From Erysipelotrichaceae bacterium (GTDB taxonomy: Bacteria; Bacillota_I; Bacilli_A; Erysipelotrichales; Erysipelotrichaceae), in contig JAUMYM010000013.1 in NCBI GenBank assembly GCA_030528645.1, positions 1-38,820 of the forward strand: a DNA stretch of 38,820 nucleotides, read 5' to 3'. The notes under the pieces are model-generated. The model did not search any database. It was not told where the DNA came from and worked only from the letters and a program-made list of their open reading frames with translations. A program made the translations under genes and the position numbers. Of the stretch, positions 13,907 through 36,649 are shown piece after piece; position 1 is the stretch's first letter, and each line of letters begins with the position of its first letter.

Positions 13907-15283
13907 TTAAGAAAATAAAGATAATATTTTTTTAATCCAAGGAAACTTATTTGTGTATGGAGGATAACGTAGAGGAACATCAAATAACGTTGTTTTTGAT
14001 ATCATACCTTTATAATGACTAAAGGTTTCAAAACTATATTTTCCATGGTAGCGACCTAATCCACTTGTACGAAGTCCTCCAAAAGGTAGATTGTGATCAG
14101 AAACATGAATTAATGTATCATTGATACAACCACCACCAAATGGTAAATTCTTCAATACATTATCAATGTTCGTTTTATTTTGCGAAAATATATAACATGC
14201 TAAAGGAGTTGGTTGTTCATAAATGGTATCTATCACTTCATCCAGATACTCATAGCTTATAACAGGGATAATGGGTCCAAAAATTTCTTCCTGCATACAA
14301 GGATGATTCCAATCTTTACAATTCACTAGGGTAAATTCAAGCTGTAACGTATCAGGATTTGATCTTCCACCATATAAAATATCTGTATCTTTTAATAATG
14401 CACATAAACGATTAAAATGGTTTTCATTTATTATTTTAGGATAATCCATATTCAAATATGATTGTTCTTTCCAAAATTGCTTTACATACCTACTACACGC
14501 TTTAACAAAGTCGTCTTTTAAAGAATGATGAATATAGATGTAATCAACTGCAACACAAGTTTGTCCGGCATTGATTAATTTACCCCATACGATACGTTTT
14601 GCAGCTAAATCAATCTTTGCACTTTCATCAATGATACAAGGAGATTTCCCACCTAACTCTAAAGTAATTGGCGTTAAATGTTTAGAAGCCTTTTCCATAA
14701 CCACTTTTCCCACTGCAACACTACCGGTAAAAAAGATATAATCAAAAGCTTGGTCAAGCAAATCTTGATTTACGACTCGATTACCAAGACAAGTGGTAAC
14801 ATAGTCATCTATAAAACACTCAGTAATTATTGTTTTTATCACTAAACTTGAATGCTGTGCATAATTTGATGGTTTTAATACAACACAGTTTCCAGCAGCA
14901 ATCGCTCCTATCAATGGCACAAATGACAACTGAAACGGATAATTCCACGGTGATAATATCAATACGCATCCATGGGGTTGAGGCATAATTATATTTTTAG
15001 AGTAAAAATGTACCAAAGAACCCATAGTATTTTTAGTTTTCATTAAAGATTTTAACTTCTTTTTAAAGAAAGACAGTTCACCATAAATCAATGATAACTC
15101 CGTCATAAAAGATTCTGTATGTGACTTATTTAAATCTTTCTTTAGCGCATCCAATATATCTTGTTCATATTTTTTTAAGGTTTCTTCCAGTTTATGCAAT
15201 TGTTGCATACGAAAGGTATAACTATGTGTTACATGTGTTTTAAAATAAGCTTTTTGTTTATTTAATACTTCTTTACCATTCAT
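13907..15283 (-). CDS. NAD(P)-dependent aldehyde dehydrogenase
   Basis: Oxidises an aldehyde to a carboxylate. It has 458 residues, as usual for the short class-3/fatty-aldehyde type lacking the longer N-terminus. Visible landmarks are PWNYPFQL (112-119), FFTGSVAVG (about 184-192), the general base E209 in LELGGKSP and the nucleophile C243 in NAGQTCVA. The C-terminal end is hydrophobic and basic, which might help membrane contact. AAAGGA precedes the ATG at 15283. It overlaps the upstream iron alcohol dehydrogenase by 11 bases, so the pair probably carries out alcohol-to-aldehyde-to-acid conversion or its reverse; the substrate is not known. Confidence 0.9.
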   Translation of the reverse strand: MNGKEVLNKQKAYFKTHVTHSYTFRMQQLHKLEETLKKYEQDILDALKKDLNKSHTESFMTELSLIYGELSFFKKKLKSLMKTKNTMGSLVHFYSKNIIMPQPHGCVLILSPWNYPFQLSFVPLIGAIAAGNCVVLKPSNYAQHSSLVIKTIITECFIDDYVTTCLGNRVVNQDLLDQAFDYIFFTGSVAVGKVVMEKASKHLTPITLELGGKSPCIIDESAKIDLAAKRIVWGKLINAGQTCVAVDYIYIHHSLKDDFVKACSRYVKQFWKEQSYLNMDYPKIINENHFNRLCALLKDTDILYGGRSNPDTLQLEFTLVNCKDWNHPCMQEEIFGPIIPVISYEYLDEVIDTIYEQPTPLACYIFSQNKTNIDNVLKNLPFGGGCINDTLIHVSDHNLPFGGLRTSGLGRYHGKYSFETFSHYKGMISKTTLFDVPLRYPPYTNKFPWIKKILSLFS

Positions 15284-16472
15284 ATTCTCTTCCTTTAATT
15301 TGATTTAATAGATGGCTAAATTCTTTTTTTGTTACTATTTTTGGTACAGGATATAAGGGATGAGCTTCTTTATAGGCTCTATAAATTAACATATCAAAAT
15401 CCTTATCATCAAGAATTGGTATATGTTTAGGAATATTTAATGCTTGATTTAAAAGTCTAATTTCTTTGATAAAAGATGTTGCTTTTTCAGAATTGGAAAG
15501 CTGTTGTTCAGGTTTAATCACATCATATAGTGCACTTAATTTATCTATTATTGCATCTTTACAATAATCTAATACATATGGCAAAACAATAGCATTAACA
15601 TATCCATGCGCTAACTGATAATGACCACCAATAGCGTGTGATAAAGCATGTACATATCCTACATATGCTTTTGTAAAAGCCAATCCAGCCTGATAAGATG
15701 CCAGTAACATTTCCCCTCTTGCTTGTATATCTAATGGATGATGATAACATGTAAGTAAATTGGAAAATACTTTTTTTACTGCCTTTTTTGCAAGAGCATT
15801 CGTTTCTTGATCTCCCCCTTTTCCAATATAAGCTTCAATCGCATGGGTCAATGCATCCATACCCGTTTCAGCAGTAATATGTTTTGGTAGAGTTAAGGTT
15901 AAATTTGGATCTAAAATAGCATAATCTGGTGTTAAGGAAGGATCAATTATAAAATATTTTTCATGAGTTTCTTCATCGGAAATCACAGCTGCCACAGTTA
16001 CTTCACTTCCTGTACCAGCCGTTGTAGGAATCGCTAATAAAAATGGTATTTTCTTTCGTATCGTTAATAATCCTTTTAACTTTAAAATACTCTTATTTGG
16101 TCTAACTACTTTCGCTGCTACTCCTTTTGCACAATCCATGACAGATCCTCCACCCAGAGCAATAATTCCATCACATTGTTTTGATAAATAAATAGAATAA
16201 GCCTCCATAACATTTGTAGTTGTTGGATTTGCTACAGTATCAGAATATATGGCATACATATTTAATTGATCTGTAATTTTATTTGATAGTTTTAACTTTA
16301 CCATCGTATTATCCGTAATGAATAGTGGATGATGAATCTTTTCTTTCCTTAATATTTCTGATACTTCTTGAATTCCATTTACTTTGTTTAAAAGTTTTTG
16401 CTTCTTCCAAGGCAACAGTTTCGATACTACTTTCATCATACTTTGATACATTCGACAATATAATTTAAACAT
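15273..16472 (-). CDS. Iron-containing (group III) alcohol dehydrogenase
   Basis: NAD(P)-dependent dehydrogenase interconverting an alcohol and an aldehyde with a bound metal, usually iron. It has 399 residues. The nucleotide-binding GGGSVMD is at 107-113, TTAGTGSEVT at 150-159, and the family metal ligands are all present: D206, H210 (GMDALTH), H275 and H289, with H279 as the extra catalytic histidine. AAAGGAG lies before ATG 16472. Only about 20 bases separate the start from the terminator hairpin of the preceding transcript and no convincing promoter is visible there. It overlaps the aldehyde dehydrogenase downstream. Substrate unknown. Confidence 0.92.
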   Translation of the reverse strand: MFKLYCRMYQSMMKVVSKLLPWKKQKLLNKVNGIQEVSEILRKEKIHHPLFITDNTMVKLKLSNKITDQLNMYAIYSDTVANPTTTNVMEAYSIYLSKQCDGIIALGGGSVMDCAKGVAAKVVRPNKSILKLKGLLTIRKKIPFLLAIPTTAGTGSEVTVAAVISDEETHEKYFIIDPSLTPDYAILDPNLTLTLPKHITAETGMDALTHAIEAYIGKGGDQETNALAKKAVKKVFSNLLTCYHHPLDIQARGEMLLASYQAGLAFTKAYVGYVHALSHAIGGHYQLAHGYVNAIVLPYVLDYCKDAIIDKLSALYDVIKPEQQLSNSEKATSFIKEIRLLNQALNIPKHIPILDDKDFDMLIYRAYKEAHPLYPVPKIVTKKEFSHLLNQIKGREYEW

Positions 16473-16492: not shown

Positions 16493-16523
16493 AAATAAAA
16501 AACTAGATTAAAACAATCTAGTT
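16493..16523 (-). terminator. Terminator after the alpha/beta hydrolase gene
   Basis: A nine-base-pair perfect stem (16501-16509 with 16515-16523) with a five-base loop, followed on the minus strand by a TTTTTT-type run and further T-rich sequence. It closes the unit that ends with the hydrolase at 16537. Confidence 0.85.
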
Positions 16524-16536
16524 CTTACACTATCAT

Positions 16537-17457
16537 TTAGCTATGTCTTTTAATAAATTTCATGACTTTATCAAAATAATCTTCGTTATTTAAGCAACTT
16601 AAATGATCATTATTCTTATATGTAATAATTTCTTTTAAACTATTATTAGCATAATAATTATCATACGCATAATCCACATGAACTATTGGATCATATTCAC
16701 TATGAATAAACAACATCGGTATATAATTATTTGCTAAAGAATGACGAACATCTAATTGATTCACGTCAAATTTTAAACGATTTTTAATAATGAATTTCAA
16801 ATACGGAAGAAATAACTTACCTCCAAATTTAAGATTACGATTTACTTCTTCAACCATTAAATCACTTAAGCTTGTAAAACCACTGTCTACAATACATACT
16901 TTTACATTGTCACAAACAATATTGCTACTTGCCATCATAATGGTAACTGCACCATAGCTTAATCCATACAATACAATATTCGCTTTTGGATAAGAAGCTA
17001 CTAAATCATCAATCCATGTTAATAAATCAAATTGTTCATACCAACCAAGTGTTGTGTATTTTCCTTCTGATTGACCATGACCACGACCATCAACCAATAG
17101 GCAATTATATCCAAGTTCATCGAATTTCATTGTCGCCTTCAGCATCTTTGTTAAATCTGTCCCTAAAGGATGTAGCAAAATAACCCATTGATTACTTTCA
17201 GGGTGATTAATAATACGTTTACCATGTAAATTCAAACCATCATTTGACTTAATCCAAGTTTCATAGACATTACTAGAGTTATACCAATCTAAAATCGATT
17301 GATATTCATCAATATTTACACCTAAATCAAAGCCTTCTTTCTTTTGGATAAAGAAATCATTGAATACTCTTTCTGCAATTGCTACATATGTAGCTCCTGC
17401 TGCAACTGTTGTAAGAGCACCAGCAACCATTAAACCTCTTTTAACATTTTTATTCAT
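16537..17457 (-). CDS. Membrane-anchored alpha/beta hydrolase
   Basis: Predicted serine hydrolase of 306 residues. An N-terminal hydrophobic segment (about 8-27, basic residues before it) suggests a membrane anchor or uncleaved signal. The catalytic triad is readable: nucleophile S167 in GLSYG (165-169), D256 in HSEYDP and H285 in NNDHLS. Other fold landmarks are HPLGTD (96-101), the oxyanion region, and VDGRGHGQSEG (122-132). The start codon overlaps the stop of the upstream gene in an ATGA junction (17454-17457), so the two are translationally coupled. Similar proteins are often annotated as lysophospholipase- or Bem46-like; the substrate cannot be inferred. Confidence 0.85.
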   Translation of the reverse strand: MNKNVKRGLMVAGALTTVAAGATYVAIAERVFNDFFIQKKEGFDLGVNIDEYQSILDWYNSSNVYETWIKSNDGLNLHGKRIINHPESNQWVILLHPLGTDLTKMLKATMKFDELGYNCLLVDGRGHGQSEGKYTTLGWYEQFDLLTWIDDLVASYPKANIVLYGLSYGAVTIMMASSNIVCDNVKVCIVDSGFTSLSDLMVEEVNRNLKFGGKLFLPYLKFIIKNRLKFDVNQLDVRHSLANNYIPMLFIHSEYDPIVHVDYAYDNYYANNSLKEIITYKNNDHLSCLNNEDYFDKVMKFIKRHS

Positions 17458-18281
17458 AAGTCTAACCTATTTATTCCTAAAATCCTTTCTTTTATTAACT
17501 GACGATGATCTTGATTGATACTAAACTTATTATATAATTCTTTTATCATTTCTACAAATGATACTTTATATTGTGTAGGTATCGATTTACGTAATAGTAA
17601 ACGATACATTGCATCAAAATGCTCTGGATACTTTTCTTCAACAAATGTTAATATCGCAGAAGCATTCTCTTTATTCACTTTTAAAAGCATTACTTCTAAA
17701 TAATCAGCACGGTATTTTACTGCATGCTGAAAAATCAATTCTAAGTTTTCTTTGGAATCTAACAAATATGGAATCACCGGATTAATGGTAATGCCAACCA
17801 CGACATCCGTATTCTTTTTTATCGTATCAATACACTCAAAACGACTTAGAAAACTATTGCCCATTTGATCAATAATTTTTTCATGTTCTAAATGACTACA
17901 CATAACATTCATATTTAAACCTACATAAGTCAATGTTGAAAGTTCTTTAATATAGTTTAAATCATTTAGTATATAGTTTGTTTTTGTATAGATTACAATG
18001 GGTTGACGATATTTTATCAGTACTTTTAAAATACGGCTAATTAAAAATTCAGCATGAAACATAGGATGATACACATCTATAGTTTTTCCTAAAGCAATGA
18101 TACCAATACGCTTTGCTTTTAATATCTCTTCTAATGTATGTGCCACCTGTGGATTTAATGTGTAATGTTTGTAATCTTCTTCACTACTCAATACAACTTC
18201 CTGTAATGGCTCTTGAAAAATATTAAGTTCATAAGCATAAGGGTATTTTTTATTTGTTGGAATTAAAATATCTTGATTCAT
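17454..18281 (-). CDS. SPL-like radical-SAM-fold protein lacking the iron-sulfur cysteines
   Basis: A 275-residue protein whose whole length follows, by my recollection, the pattern of the spore-photoproduct-lyase-like radical-SAM proteins common in Firmicutes. Examples are TIDVYHP (67-73, normally like TDPYQP), the ISRIL helix (81-85), IYTKTNYILNDLNYI (97-111, normally TKS with RD), SRFECID (146-152) and NPVIPYLLDSKENL (167-180). The N-terminus, where the CxxxCxxC cluster motif belongs, aligns colinearly but carries P25, V29 and S32; the only cysteines are C128 and C150. It should not bind a 4Fe-4S cluster, so it is a pseudo-enzyme or has a new role. It follows valS by 25 bases and is coupled to the hydrolase. 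No frameshift or stop disrupts it. Confidence 0.7.
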   Translation of the reverse strand: MNQDILIPTNKKYPYAYELNIFQEPLQEVVLSSEEDYKHYTLNPQVAHTLEEILKAKRIGIIALGKTIDVYHPMFHAEFLISRILKVLIKYRQPIVIYTKTNYILNDLNYIKELSTLTYVGLNMNVMCSHLEHEKIIDQMGNSFLSRFECIDTIKKNTDVVVGITINPVIPYLLDSKENLELIFQHAVKYRADYLEVMLLKVNKENASAILTFVEEKYPEHFDAMYRLLLRKSIPTQYKVSFVEMIKELYNKFSINQDHRQLIKERILGINRLDL

Positions 18282-18306: not shown

Positions 18307-20910
18307 CTATTTTTTTAGTTCAAGCAAACGATTTGTAATTACATCATATTGCATTTGGTAATTTGATAATTTTATCTCTTCACTCTTTACTTTATCAGGA
18401 CTCGCTTTTGTCTTGAAATTTGGATTTTGAAGCATAGTTGTACAACGTTGTATTTCTTTTTGAAGTTGTTCCTGCTCTTTCATTAATTTCTTAATTTCTT
18501 CTTCTTTATTAACAATTTTATTCATTTCAAATCCAATAGAACCTTGTTGAATAGGACGAATCATTAACTCACCATCTAAGTTTGAAACCCAATGTACTTT
18601 ACACATCTTATATAAAATGGCAGCTTTAATTTCATCTGGTTGCATACATACTTGTTGAGCATTAAAAACAACCATATCTAATTCTAATGAAGGTTTTAAT
18701 TGATTGTCTACTTTAATTTGACGTACAGTAGAAATAATTTCAATTAATTGATTTACTTCAAATACATCTTTCATCATTTCTTTTTGACAAATTGGATACT
18801 CACTAATAGAAATTGATGTTTTATTTGGATATAACGTTAAAAATATTTCTTCTGTTACAAATGGCATAAATGGATGAAGCATCTTAATAATGTTATCTAA
18901 TACATATACTAATACAGAAATTGTTGTATGTTTAATTGTTTCATCTTCACTTTGTAAACCGGACTTACTAAATTCAATATACCAGTTACAGAAATCATCC
19001 CAAACAAAACGATATAATTCATTGCCAACTAATGCAAATTCATAACGTTCCATATTTGTTGTGACATGATCTAATGTATGATGCAAGGATGCTAAAATCC
19101 ATTCGTCTGTAAGCGACAACTGCTTTAATTCTAAATTTGTTAAATCAAAGTTTTCAGGAATATTCATAATGACATAACGTGCTGCATTCCAGATTTTATT
19201 AATAAAGTTCCAAGATGCTTCTACTTTGGTAGGTATATAACGCATATCTTGACCAGGTGTTGAATTGGTTGTTAAAAAGAAACGTAAGGCATCTACACCA
19301 TATTGATCAATAACATCCATTGGATCAATTCCATTGCCAAGTGATTTACTCATCTTACGACCTTGTTCATCACGAATCAATCCATGAATCAAAACATCTT
19401 TAAATGGAATTTGCTTTGTAAAGTAACGAGCTTGAAACGCCATACGAGCAACCCAGAAGAAAATAATATCATAACCTGTAACCATGCAATCGGTTGGATA
19501 ATAACGCGTGAAGTCTTCTGTAATTTCTGGCCATCCTAAGGTTGAAAACGGCCATAAAGCACTTGAGAACCATGTATCCAATACATCTTCATCTTGAATA
19601 TAGTTTTCCATATCTTTAGGAGGAACTTCACTAACAAAAACCTCTTTTGTTTCCTTATGATAGTATGCAGGAATACGATGTCCCCACCACAATTGACGTG
19701 AAATACACCAATCTTCAATGTTTTCTAACCAACCAGTAAATGTTTTTTCAAAGCGTGCTGGATAGAAATTAATTTTTTCATTCCCTGCTTGATGTTTAAG
19801 TACATCATCAGCAAGTGGTTTCATCTTCACAAACCATTGTTTCGATAAGTATGGTTCAACAATAACATCCGTACGCTCACTATGTCCTACTTGATGGATA
19901 TGTTCTTCAATAGAAATTAAATTACCTTCTTCTTTAATTTTTTCAACAAGAAGTTTGCGACATTGAAAACGATCTAGTCCTTTAAATTCCAAAGCAAGTT
20001 CATTCATTGTACCATCTTCATTCATACATATAGGCATATCTAATTGATGACGCAAAGCAATTTGATAATCATTTGGATCATGTGCCGGCGTACATTTCAT
20101 GGCACCAGTACCGAATTCCATATCAATATAACTATCTCCAATGATAATTAACTCTTGATGATTAGCAGGGTTAATCGCTTTTTTACCAATTAAATGCATA
20201 AAACGTTCATCTTTTGGATGTACAACTAAACATACATCACCAAACATCGTTTCTGGGCGTGTAGTCGCAACTGCTAATGTTTCATCGCTACCAACAATCG
20301 AATATTTAAATGTATAGAAATTGCCTTTCACTTCTTTATGAATTACTTCAATATTACTTAATGCTGTTTTAGCTTGAGGATCCCAGTTAATAATACGATA
20401 GCCTTGATAGATTAAACCATTATTATATAAATCCACAAACACTTTATTGACAGCTTTATTTAAACCATCATCTAAAGTAAAACGTTCACGAGAATAATCT
20501 AACGAGTTTCCAAGTTTTGCCCATTGACTACGAATAAAAGTTGCATATTCTTCTTTCCAAGCCCATGCTTGTGTTAAAAAACCATCACGTTTTAAATCAT
20601 AGCGTGATAAACCTTGTTCCTTTAAGCGTTGTTCAACTTTAGCTTGTGTAGCAATACCAGCATGATCCATGCCCGGCAAATACAACATATCATAGCCCTG
20701 CATACGTTTATAACGCGCAATAATATCTTGCAACGTATTATCCCAAGCATGTCCTAAATGCAATTTCCCGGTAACATTGGGAGGAGGAATCACAATTGTA
20801 TATGGCTTTTTATCTGATTCATAAGCCTTAAATAAATCTAAGTCTACCCATCGTTGATACTTCCCTTTTTCTACTTCTAAATGATTGTATTTTGTTTCTA
20901 GATTTTTCAT
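18307..20910 (-). CDS. valS: Valine--tRNA ligase
   Basis: Class I synthetase charging tRNA-Val, 867 residues from ATG 20910. This start has AAGGAG six bases upstream; an in-frame TTG at 20925 lies within the leader before that site and is rejected. The HIGH-type motif HLGH is at 51-54 (in PNVTGKLHLGH) and KMSKS at 519-523. The editing domain is present between (TTRPETMFGD, about 216-225, and the GTGAMKCTPAHD region). The last 65 residues form the coiled-coil arm typical of ValRS. Expression is controlled by a T-box leader with a valine specifier. The two downstream genes may share its transcript. Confidence 0.97.
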   Translation of the reverse strand: MKNLETKYNHLEVEKGKYQRWVDLDLFKAYESDKKPYTIVIPPPNVTGKLHLGHAWDNTLQDIIARYKRMQGYDMLYLPGMDHAGIATQAKVEQRLKEQGLSRYDLKRDGFLTQAWAWKEEYATFIRSQWAKLGNSLDYSRERFTLDDGLNKAVNKVFVDLYNNGLIYQGYRIINWDPQAKTALSNIEVIHKEVKGNFYTFKYSIVGSDETLAVATTRPETMFGDVCLVVHPKDERFMHLIGKKAINPANHQELIIIGDSYIDMEFGTGAMKCTPAHDPNDYQIALRHQLDMPICMNEDGTMNELALEFKGLDRFQCRKLLVEKIKEEGNLISIEEHIHQVGHSERTDVIVEPYLSKQWFVKMKPLADDVLKHQAGNEKINFYPARFEKTFTGWLENIEDWCISRQLWWGHRIPAYYHKETKEVFVSEVPPKDMENYIQDEDVLDTWFSSALWPFSTLGWPEITEDFTRYYPTDCMVTGYDIIFFWVARMAFQARYFTKQIPFKDVLIHGLIRDEQGRKMSKSLGNGIDPMDVIDQYGVDALRFFLTTNSTPGQDMRYIPTKVEASWNFINKIWNAARYVIMNIPENFDLTNLELKQLSLTDEWILASLHHTLDHVTTNMERYEFALVGNELYRFVWDDFCNWYIEFSKSGLQSEDETIKHTTISVLVYVLDNIIKMLHPFMPFVTEEIFLTLYPNKTSISISEYPICQKEMMKDVFEVNQLIEIISTVRQIKVDNQLKPSLELDMVVFNAQQVCMQPDEIKAAILYKMCKVHWVSNLDGELMIRPIQQGSIGFEMNKIVNKEEEIKKLMKEQEQLQKEIQRCTTMLQNPNFKTKASPDKVKSEEIKLSNYQMQYDVITNRLLELKK

Positions 20911-20926
20911 ACTTTTCTCCTTCAAT

Positions 20927-20954
20927 AAAAAAATCGTCCTATCATAAGGACGAT
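20927..20954 (-). terminator. T-box regulated terminator
   Basis: An eight-base-pair stem (20933-20940 with 20947-20954) and six-base loop followed by seven T on the minus strand (20927-20933). It alternates with the antiterminator formed by the T-box sequence just upstream. Confidence 0.9.
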
Positions 20955-21141
20955 TATCGCGGTACCACCTTAATTCATATCAAAAGATATGCACTTCCTT
21001 GTTTAACGCACTTCACGGATTTTCCTATTTACTTAGAAAACCAACTCCTAGACTACATTCACCTACCGTACGATCCTTTTCCATCCACCAAGAATTTTCT
21101 ATATGTCACCAATAGATTACTACCTTCTATTCACAGTTATT
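20927..21141 (-). promoter_or_regulatory. T-box riboswitch of valS (specifier GTA, valine)
   Basis: Leader RNA that senses uncharged tRNA-Val and lets transcription continue into valS. The conserved T-box AAGGTGGTACCGCG is on the minus strand at 20958-20971, followed by a terminator. Stem I occupies roughly 21035-21135, with a GGTGG motif near 21085-21090 and an AGTAATC segment near its 5' side. In the segment GAATGTAGTC (21051-21060) the triplet GTA (21054-21056) is a valine codon followed by a purine, the normal specifier layout, and agrees with the gene downstream. The exact Stem I pairing was not computed. Confidence 0.93.
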
Positions 21142-21147
21142 AAATGA

Positions 21148-21175
21148 ATTATATCAAACCTTATTCAGATGTCAA
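21148..21175 (-). promoter_or_regulatory. Promoter of the valS leader
   Basis: TTGACA (21170-21175) and TATAAT (21148-21153) with a 16-base spacer and a TG one base before the -10. The -35 lies inside the last codons of engB. Transcription would start near 21141, exactly where the T-box leader begins. Confidence 0.85.
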
Positions 21176-34417: not shown

Positions 34418-36649
34418 TTAATTTACTTTATATCCTTGTTTATAGTTTAGTACTACTACCAGTGTTACTACCGTAGTTAACAGTAACCATTGATATAACG
34501 TTGTACTGCTTGAATCTTGCGTCTTTGGGATGCTTGGTTTATAAGGTGTCGATACAACTTCTTCCTCTACATCACTTGGTTTTGAAATAATTTTTGTGTT
34601 AATCACTGTAAACCCTGTTGCATCTGGTTGTATGACAGTCATATAGCCAAAGATTGGTTCTTGTTTTACAGTATATACAATTGGATGTCCATCTCTTTGA
34701 TCATATATCAATAAATTATTGAATGCACCTTGCCAAGCAGTTGTATTATCAACTCTTATCACTTGTCCGGTATCTTGATTATCAGCAAATAGTCTAAGGA
34801 TACTATGACTTGAAACAGCCCCAATCCAGTTTACTTTTACCGAAATATTCTTAGTTTCTTGAGAAATATTTTTTACTGTAACCCCATTTGGATTATTTTG
34901 AACCACAGAAGTATATCCGACAATTGGCACTTCTTGTACTGTATAACGAATTTCCGCATGAGTAACAAAATCATATTTATGTAAGTTAGCAAAAACACTC
35001 TTCCAATTTGTTGATTCATCAACTGTTATCGTGATACCTTGATCTACACCATCCGCAAATAATTTAAACGTTGCAGATGCTTGTTTAGGTCCAACCCATT
35101 CTTTCGTCACTTCAAGGTCAAACACTTCGTAATTTAATACATCAAATTCATTAGGCATTGGATTTAAAATCGCATTTTGATATCCGTCAACAACAACTTC
35201 TTCAACATTATATACATATTCATGATGATCAACAGGATCATATTTCAATAAATTTTCAAAACTATCTTCCCATCCCATGGCTTTTGTTAATATTAGTTTT
35301 TTACCTGTATCTTGATCATCTTTTAAAAGTTTAAATGTTGCACTATCTAACTCTTTTCCTAGCCATTTTTTCTTAACAACAACTTTTACTTTTTCATCCG
35401 CACGTTTATTTAAAACGGTTTTAACGGCTAGTTTTTGATCATTGAAATCACTTACAACTACTTTAATTGGTGTTGCATCTAACAAATATCCTGCTGGAGC
35501 CGTTACTTCTGTAAGCGTATAAGCATCTTTTAGCAAATTATCAAAAAGAATTTCTCCTTGATTATTTGTTGTTAAACGTGCAATCTCTAATCCAGTTGCA
35601 TCACGAACCAATTTAAACTCTGCACCAGGTAAAACTGTTCCATTTTGATCTGTTTTAACCACTTTAATCTTATATTGATAGCCAATCACTTCACTACCAC
35701 CTACATTGTAAGTAAGCACTGATGTTACAGGTAAAACGTTAATGTTATCACCTGTTAAAGAAGCGGTATTGGTAATCTTTTCTCCTTGTATCGGGTCATA
35801 ATTTGTTGTGGCACGATAACGAATACGATAGCCTTCCGTAGGTAAAACAGTACCTAAATCAATACGAAAACCTTTATTATCCGGATCCATATGAATCGTA
35901 AATTGATTACTTACATCCACAGATGGATCTAATTTAAATGTACCATCTCCTGCATCTACCCATGTTCCTTTAGAAATAATGATATTACTAATATTTAAGT
36001 TAACATCATCTGCGAAACGATCTTTAAGTACCGCATTCTCTATTTGTAATGATTTTTGATTTAAATCAATACGATAATCAAGCGAACGCTTATCTTCTCC
36101 CCCTACTTTCCATCCAACTTTCTGTATATCAAATGGTGTTGCAGCAGGAGCACCATTATAATGAATCATACCATTATAGATAGTTGTTCCATTTGAAACT
36201 AATGTTACCGGAACATCTTGTTCACCAATTACATTCGCATTTTCAACACGTACTAAAAAGAAAAAACTTCCTTCAATATCATTAAAATTAACAATTTCAT
36301 CTGTATATGTAAGCGTAATTTGATTTGTCTGTTTATTAAATCTTACATTTGCAAATGTTTTGTTATCTTTTTTTATTTCAATTGGTACTTCTTGGGTAAA
36401 AGTAAGCTCCGGATTCATTTGAATGGTTGTTGTATCTCCTGGAGATACAGCTCCATTTGGAATACTAAAATTCAATGAAAACTTTAATTCTTGCCAAATA
36501 TCTACATTACCAATAGGAGAACCGTCCCTTTTGGTTAAAGTGACTTGATGAAATGTTATTTCTTTTTCTGCAGCAAATACTTGAATCCCTGTAAGTAAAA
36601 AGCAAAAAATGCTACAGAGTAAAAGAAATGATTTTACTATTTTTTTCAT
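34418..36649 (-). CDS. Cell-wall-anchored collagen-adhesin-like surface protein with Cna-B repeats
   Basis: 743-residue surface protein. A Sec signal peptide (1-26, ending VFAA) is followed by an adhesin region of paired immunoglobulin-like domains like the collagen-binding MSCRAMMs (about 28-315), a SpaA-type domain (about 323-415; K332, E381, N414) and three Cna-B repeats (about 420-507, 509-595 and 598-685). Repeats 1 and 2 have the isopeptide set K427/E484/N506 and K516/E573/N594; repeat 3 has V606 and Q663 instead of lysine and glutamate. The C-terminus has the sorting motif IPKTQ (707-711), a hydrophobic segment (about 717-735) and a basic tail. The ligand is unknown; no sortase gene is in the window. 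Confidence 0.9.
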   Translation of the reverse strand: MKKIVKSFLLLCSIFCFLLTGIQVFAAEKEITFHQVTLTKRDGSPIGNVDIWQELKFSLNFSIPNGAVSPGDTTTIQMNPELTFTQEVPIEIKKDNKTFANVRFNKQTNQITLTYTDEIVNFNDIEGSFFFLVRVENANVIGEQDVPVTLVSNGTTIYNGMIHYNGAPAATPFDIQKVGWKVGGEDKRSLDYRIDLNQKSLQIENAVLKDRFADDVNLNISNIIISKGTWVDAGDGTFKLDPSVDVSNQFTIHMDPDNKGFRIDLGTVLPTEGYRIRYRATTNYDPIQGEKITNTASLTGDNINVLPVTSVLTYNVGGSEVIGYQYKIKVVKTDQNGTVLPGAEFKLVRDATGLEIARLTTNNQGEILFDNLLKDAYTLTEVTAPAGYLLDATPIKVVVSDFNDQKLAVKTVLNKRADEKVKVVVKKKWLGKELDSATFKLLKDDQDTGKKLILTKAMGWEDSFENLLKYDPVDHHEYVYNVEEVVVDGYQNAILNPMPNEFDVLNYEVFDLEVTKEWVGPKQASATFKLFADGVDQGITITVDESTNWKSVFANLHKYDFVTHAEIRYTVQEVPIVGYTSVVQNNPNGVTVKNISQETKNISVKVNWIGAVSSHSILRLFADNQDTGQVIRVDNTTAWQGAFNNLLIYDQRDGHPIVYTVKQEPIFGYMTVIQPDATGFTVINTKIISKPSDVEEEVVSTPYKPSIPKTQDSSSTTLYQWLLLTTVVTLVVVLNYKQGYKVN

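Follow-up and report, generated by a model that had tools for sequence, protein, structure and literature searches.

Behind the valyl-tRNA synthetase gene of an Erysipelotrichaceae bacterium, probably one of the dog mouth, we find an intact gene for a protein whose ancestry and fold place it in the radical SAM superfamily and which has none of the three cysteines of the cluster motif. The most probable account, which we hold with some confidence, is that it is a cluster-free pseudoenzyme, descended from a cysteine-bearing SplB-type enzyme, that has kept the barrel and would now serve in binding or regulation. The window analyzed, a stretch of 38,820 nucleotides, comes from a 1.38-Mb genome assembled into 28 contigs.

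The gene is encoded on the minus strand (17454 to 18281, read from 18281 to 17454), starts with ATG about 26 nucleotides past the valS stop, is preceded by the ribosome-binding site AAGGTGA, and encodes 275 amino acids; the plus strand across the same interval carries many stops. We found no insertion or frameshift in it, and C128 and C150 are the sole cysteines of the protein, both as the original prediction from this DNA had stated. No alternative three-cysteine motif was found in the 275 residues. In the start region, the remaining reading frames contain no cysteine motif either, and an independent genome carries the same sequence; on these grounds, we reject a sequencing error or hidden frameshift.

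Profile searches place the protein in a recognizable family. It matches two NCBIfam models, NF033668 (rSAM_PA0069; E value of 1.5e-18, 67 bits) and NF038135 (rSAM_Rv2578c; E value of 1.4e-16, 60.5 bits), and more weakly TIGR04470 (rSAM mobile pair protein B; E value of 3.8e-8). These matches begin at residues 44 to 62, downstream of the cluster loop. A profile of 20 relatives that have the cysteines gives 142 bits over residues 11 to 263, which shows that the strand at the N terminus, ahead of the loop, is also preserved (PYAYELNIF versus PYxYDLNIY in relatives). The Pfam Radical_SAM model on its own is marginal (15 bits against a cut-off of 29.5), and the PA0069 and Rv2578c scores miss the curated cut-offs of 360 and 430 bits, respectively, as do those of an intact relative, L004 (176.7 and 197.7 bits). 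Together, these profile matches clearly indicate a kinship with SplB-type (COG1533; PA0069/Rv2578c) radical SAM proteins that goes far beyond chance.

A structure prediction agrees with this assignment. The AlphaFold model, built on a shallow alignment of 10 rows (the window protein plus related loci), has a mean pLDDT of 71 and a pTM of 0.73 and shows the six strands of the radical SAM barrel in order (residues 16 to 18, 61 to 64, 95 to 99, 120 to 127, 161 to 167, and 194 to 197). The N-terminal 41 residues, including the loop region, are modeled poorly (pLDDT mostly below 50). Spore photoproduct lyase structures rank first in Foldseek, with an E value of only 2e-3, and VIA-align gives Z scores of 12.6 to 13.2 to spore photoproduct lyase over about 220 residues and of 12 to 14 to many radical SAM enzymes; a sequence search for relatives of solved structure returned none. 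Checks by profile search and by structure prediction had been proposed with the original prediction. With its six-stranded partial TIM barrel and profile homology, the protein is a member of the radical SAM superfamily; it lacks the three-cysteine motif (CxxxCxxC) that binds [4Fe-4S] in functional radical SAM enzymes.

How the motif was lost depends on the alignment used. In alignments to distant spore photoproduct lyase (SPL)-like proteins, P25, V29, and S32 occupy the three cysteine positions, which bears out the original reading. Set against the closest subfamily, the protein also lacks about 10 residues between N20 and N43; the former cluster loop (residues ~24 to 44; 18150 to 18212, minus strand) is shorter than that of relatives by this amount. 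The third cysteine and the adjoining YCYA stretch may thus have been deleted rather than substituted. The claim that the SPL-like pattern runs along the whole length therefore stands for the later barrel segments, G65xxxD69xY71xP73, T99-K100-T, and P168xxP171, all of which are present, and fails at the loop with its deletion. We defined conserved positions as those with at least 90% identity of the residue among 18 cysteine-bearing relatives. By this measure, all such positions in the loop are lost and about half of the remainder are kept. The kept barrel positions read GxxxDxYxP, TK, D, R, G, PxxP, D, and DY, and they include G65, D69, Y71, P73, T99, K100, D107, R147, P168, P171, D175, D193, and Y194.

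In SPL, mutation of any one of the three cysteines drastically destabilizes the cluster and deactivates the enzyme; within the loop, Y96 contacts the adenosine of SAM and Y98 takes part in relaying the radical (PMC3742179). The protein described here lacks the aromatic residues at both places. It is a strong inference from the lost loop that the protein holds no canonical [4Fe-4S] cluster and does not cleave SAM reductively.

Radical chemistry could have been retained if the protein, lacking a cluster itself, worked as a subunit alongside another radical SAM protein of the cell. The genome does encode nine proteins above the Pfam Radical_SAM cut-off; however, none of the nine lies within the window, none is recognizably SPL-like, the query matches only itself in its own genome, and in its operon it is accompanied by valS and a hydrolase gene. 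We consider such a subunit very improbable.

To place the protein among its relatives, we searched three overlapping genome sets: 273 from the family, 316 from the order, and 392 drawn from across the phylum. They yielded one other near-identical protein, in the single further species of the genus covered, Erysipelotrichaceae bacterium OH741_COT-311, the nearest species found. COT stands for canine oral taxon, and the label COT-311 occurs in dog-mouth papers. This sister species carries a 97% identical cysteine-less protein in the same gene order. Every other homologue is at most 32% identical, and CxxxCxxC is present in each homologue read from outside the genus; no further cysteine-less member appeared among those read in the family, order, and phylum searches, in which divergent ones could be missed. 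The original prediction had held that close homologues with the motif would point to a sequence error or recent pseudogene. Motif-bearing homologues do exist, at no more than 32% identity, whereas the one close homologue lacks the cysteines as well.

The dN/dS between the two copies is 0.080 (8 nonsynonymous versus ~22 synonymous changes; P of ~3e-10 for so few nonsynonymous changes under neutrality), inside the range of 0.02 to 0.18 for the segment's other genes, a range that omits two short open reading frames, one opposite lon and one opposite the T-box leader, both in antisense orientation. There are no indels between the copies, and the ribosome-binding site and start are intact. Residues 1 to 46, including the former loop, are identical. 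Within this two-genome lineage, residue conservation in general is inseparable from shared recent ancestry. Codons 1 to 44 (18150 to 18281) are also identical at the DNA level: the 21 codons that changed synonymously are scattered through codons 45 to 275, and about three would be expected in the unchanged part. Chance may explain this, or a constraint on the nucleotide sequence close to the start.

The low dN/dS and the unchanged residues 1 to 46 show that the cysteine-less protein is maintained under selection and make decay and sequencing error very unlikely; we reject a recent pseudogene on the dN/dS. That the gene is decaying and a stop codon has yet to arise might be argued from its long branch and its restriction to a single genus, whose genomes are small (1.38 and ~1.5 Mb). 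Set against the dN/dS, the lack of indels, and the intact start signals, this idea is hardly credible. The preference for an intact, evolved pseudoenzyme over a decaying gene, already voiced in the original prediction, is supported by the occurrence of the same form in a second species.

The tree unites the two cysteine-less proteins in one clade (support of 100/100), whose stem is 2.59 changes per column long, compared with a median end branch of 0.3; so long a stem is expected after a change of function. The exact place of the clade is weakly supported (48/83). With identities of 32% or less to all others, long-branch attraction could have drawn the protein to its present neighbors from another SPL-like lineage. 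We give this a small chance, as the best scores go consistently to one subfamily (L065, L093, L041, and L003), which shares the PYxYDLNIY-type segment before the motif.

The cysteine-less gene is the middle one of three on the minus strand, where the order is promoter, T-box, valS, cysteine-less gene, hydrolase, and possible terminator. An extended -10 sigma-70 promoter (21148 to 21175; TTGACA-16-TATAAT with TG) matches the consensus at 12 of 12 positions and is the sole such match in 6.6 kb. The T-box leader (20943 to 21143) fits Rfam RF00230 over the full model (1 to 219; 114.7 bits), and a terminator-like hairpin lies at 20955 to 20932. An 83-amino-acid TTG open reading frame antisense to the leader (20892 to 21143, plus strand) is almost certainly no gene, given its high dN/dS (0.65). 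The 872-amino-acid valS (18307 to 20925; probable internal ATG start) was identified from its HLGH and KMSKS motifs and the T-box, without a profile search. The third gene (16537 to 17457) overlaps the cysteine-less gene by ATGA and encodes an alpha/beta hydrolase (S33/Hydrolase_4; PF12146, E value of 1.7e-12) with an N-terminal hydrophobic segment and a GLSYG nucleophile motif. An A+T-rich 13-pair hairpin followed by a T run (16498 to 16526, minus strand; shuffle z of only -1.4) may be an intrinsic terminator that closes the unit; its A+T content put it beyond the reach of the scan that found the leader hairpin.

T-box, valS, cysteine-less gene, and hydrolase thus form one apparent unit, and the operon context originally described is confirmed. 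Conservation of the pairing with the hydrolase beyond this genus is not supported. The linkage of the three genes was found only in this genus: none of 15 cysteine-bearing relatives read with ~1.5-kb flanks adjoins either valS or such a hydrolase, a family common in the order (matches in 47 of 60 genomes). The position behind valS may mean no more than that the gene inserted at a convenient place. Neither the cysteine-less protein nor the hydrolase matches a defense-system profile. Downstream lie alcohol-dehydrogenase-like and aldehyde-dehydrogenase-like genes (13907 to 16472), and the end of a similar aldehyde dehydrogenase occurs about 1.1 kb from an intact radical SAM relative (L006). Elsewhere in the window, positions 34418 to 36649 encode a secreted surface protein of 743 amino acids that has SpaA/Cna-B-like repeats and whose C-terminal end is hydrophobic.

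What the barrel does now is a guess. Because the barrel and about half of the most conserved non-loop positions are kept, its cavity probably still binds a ligand, either the old substrate or a nucleotide- or SAM-like molecule. SplB-type genes are SOS regulated in several bacteria (PMC8565304), which makes nucleic acid a reasonable first candidate, no more; the relationship to a DNA- or RNA-modifying enzyme suggested originally is compatible with the family.

The main rival, which we regard as unlikely, is that the barrel has been repurposed for a nonradical reaction (e.g., acid/base or metal dependent) on D69, K100, D175, and R147, making the protein a new catalyst rather than a pseudoenzyme. 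It would fit the strong purifying selection, the retained polar core, and the presence of DRE-TIM lyases and other TIM barrels in the list of fold matches. However, these four residues are already ancestral to the radical SAM family, so their retention is no pointer to a new reaction, and we saw no metal-binding motif new to this lineage.

Under the pseudoenzyme reading, a PA0069/Rv2578c-like ancestor with its cysteines would have lost the cluster loop through cysteine substitution plus the ~10-residue deletion. Its descendant would be a partner that binds or regulates, produced alongside ValRS in response to uncharged valyl-tRNA and linked to the membrane-anchored hydrolase by translational coupling; the tie to valine-tRNA charging holds only if the three genes are cotranscribed. 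That the protein is a ligand- or nucleic-acid-binding regulator, its synthesis tied to that charging, which controls or is controlled by the hydrolase, is a speculative and rather doubtful proposal.

Among kinases and proteases, relatives without catalytic activity are well known. In the radical SAM superfamily, membership is normally defined by the cysteines, and searches that demand CxxxCxxC will overlook proteins of this kind. A limited literature search, which is weak evidence of absence, found no description of a catalytically dead member. A case under selection, with intact relatives for comparison, lets one ask what a radical SAM barrel does without its cluster.

Three known systems frame the comparison. 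Spore photoproduct lyase (4FHC to 4FHG, 4K9R, and 4RH0) has the same barrel and, unlike our protein, the three cluster cysteines and the tyrosines Y96 and Y98; it has four conserved cysteines in all (C91, C95, C98, and C141 [PMC3742179]). Its model, TIGR04070, is not among the NCBIfam matches of the window protein, which therefore falls outside that family. The PA0069/Rv2578c family is homologous over residues 11 to 263 and shares the G-D-Y-P, TK, PxxP, D, and DY barrel positions; in contrast, our protein lacks CxxxCxxC, has the shorter loop, and scores far below the equivalog cut-offs. Viral contigs yielded only distant intact homologues and no member of the near subfamily. Several phage-like ones (L107 to L110 and L112 to L118) carry two adjoining CxxxCxxC genes, the second related to the SPL-like family, in what looks like a radical SAM mobile pair of the TIGR04470 type. 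The window protein is a distant homologue of mobile pair protein B, whose members in these contigs, unlike it, keep their cysteines and adjoin a second CxxxCxxC protein.
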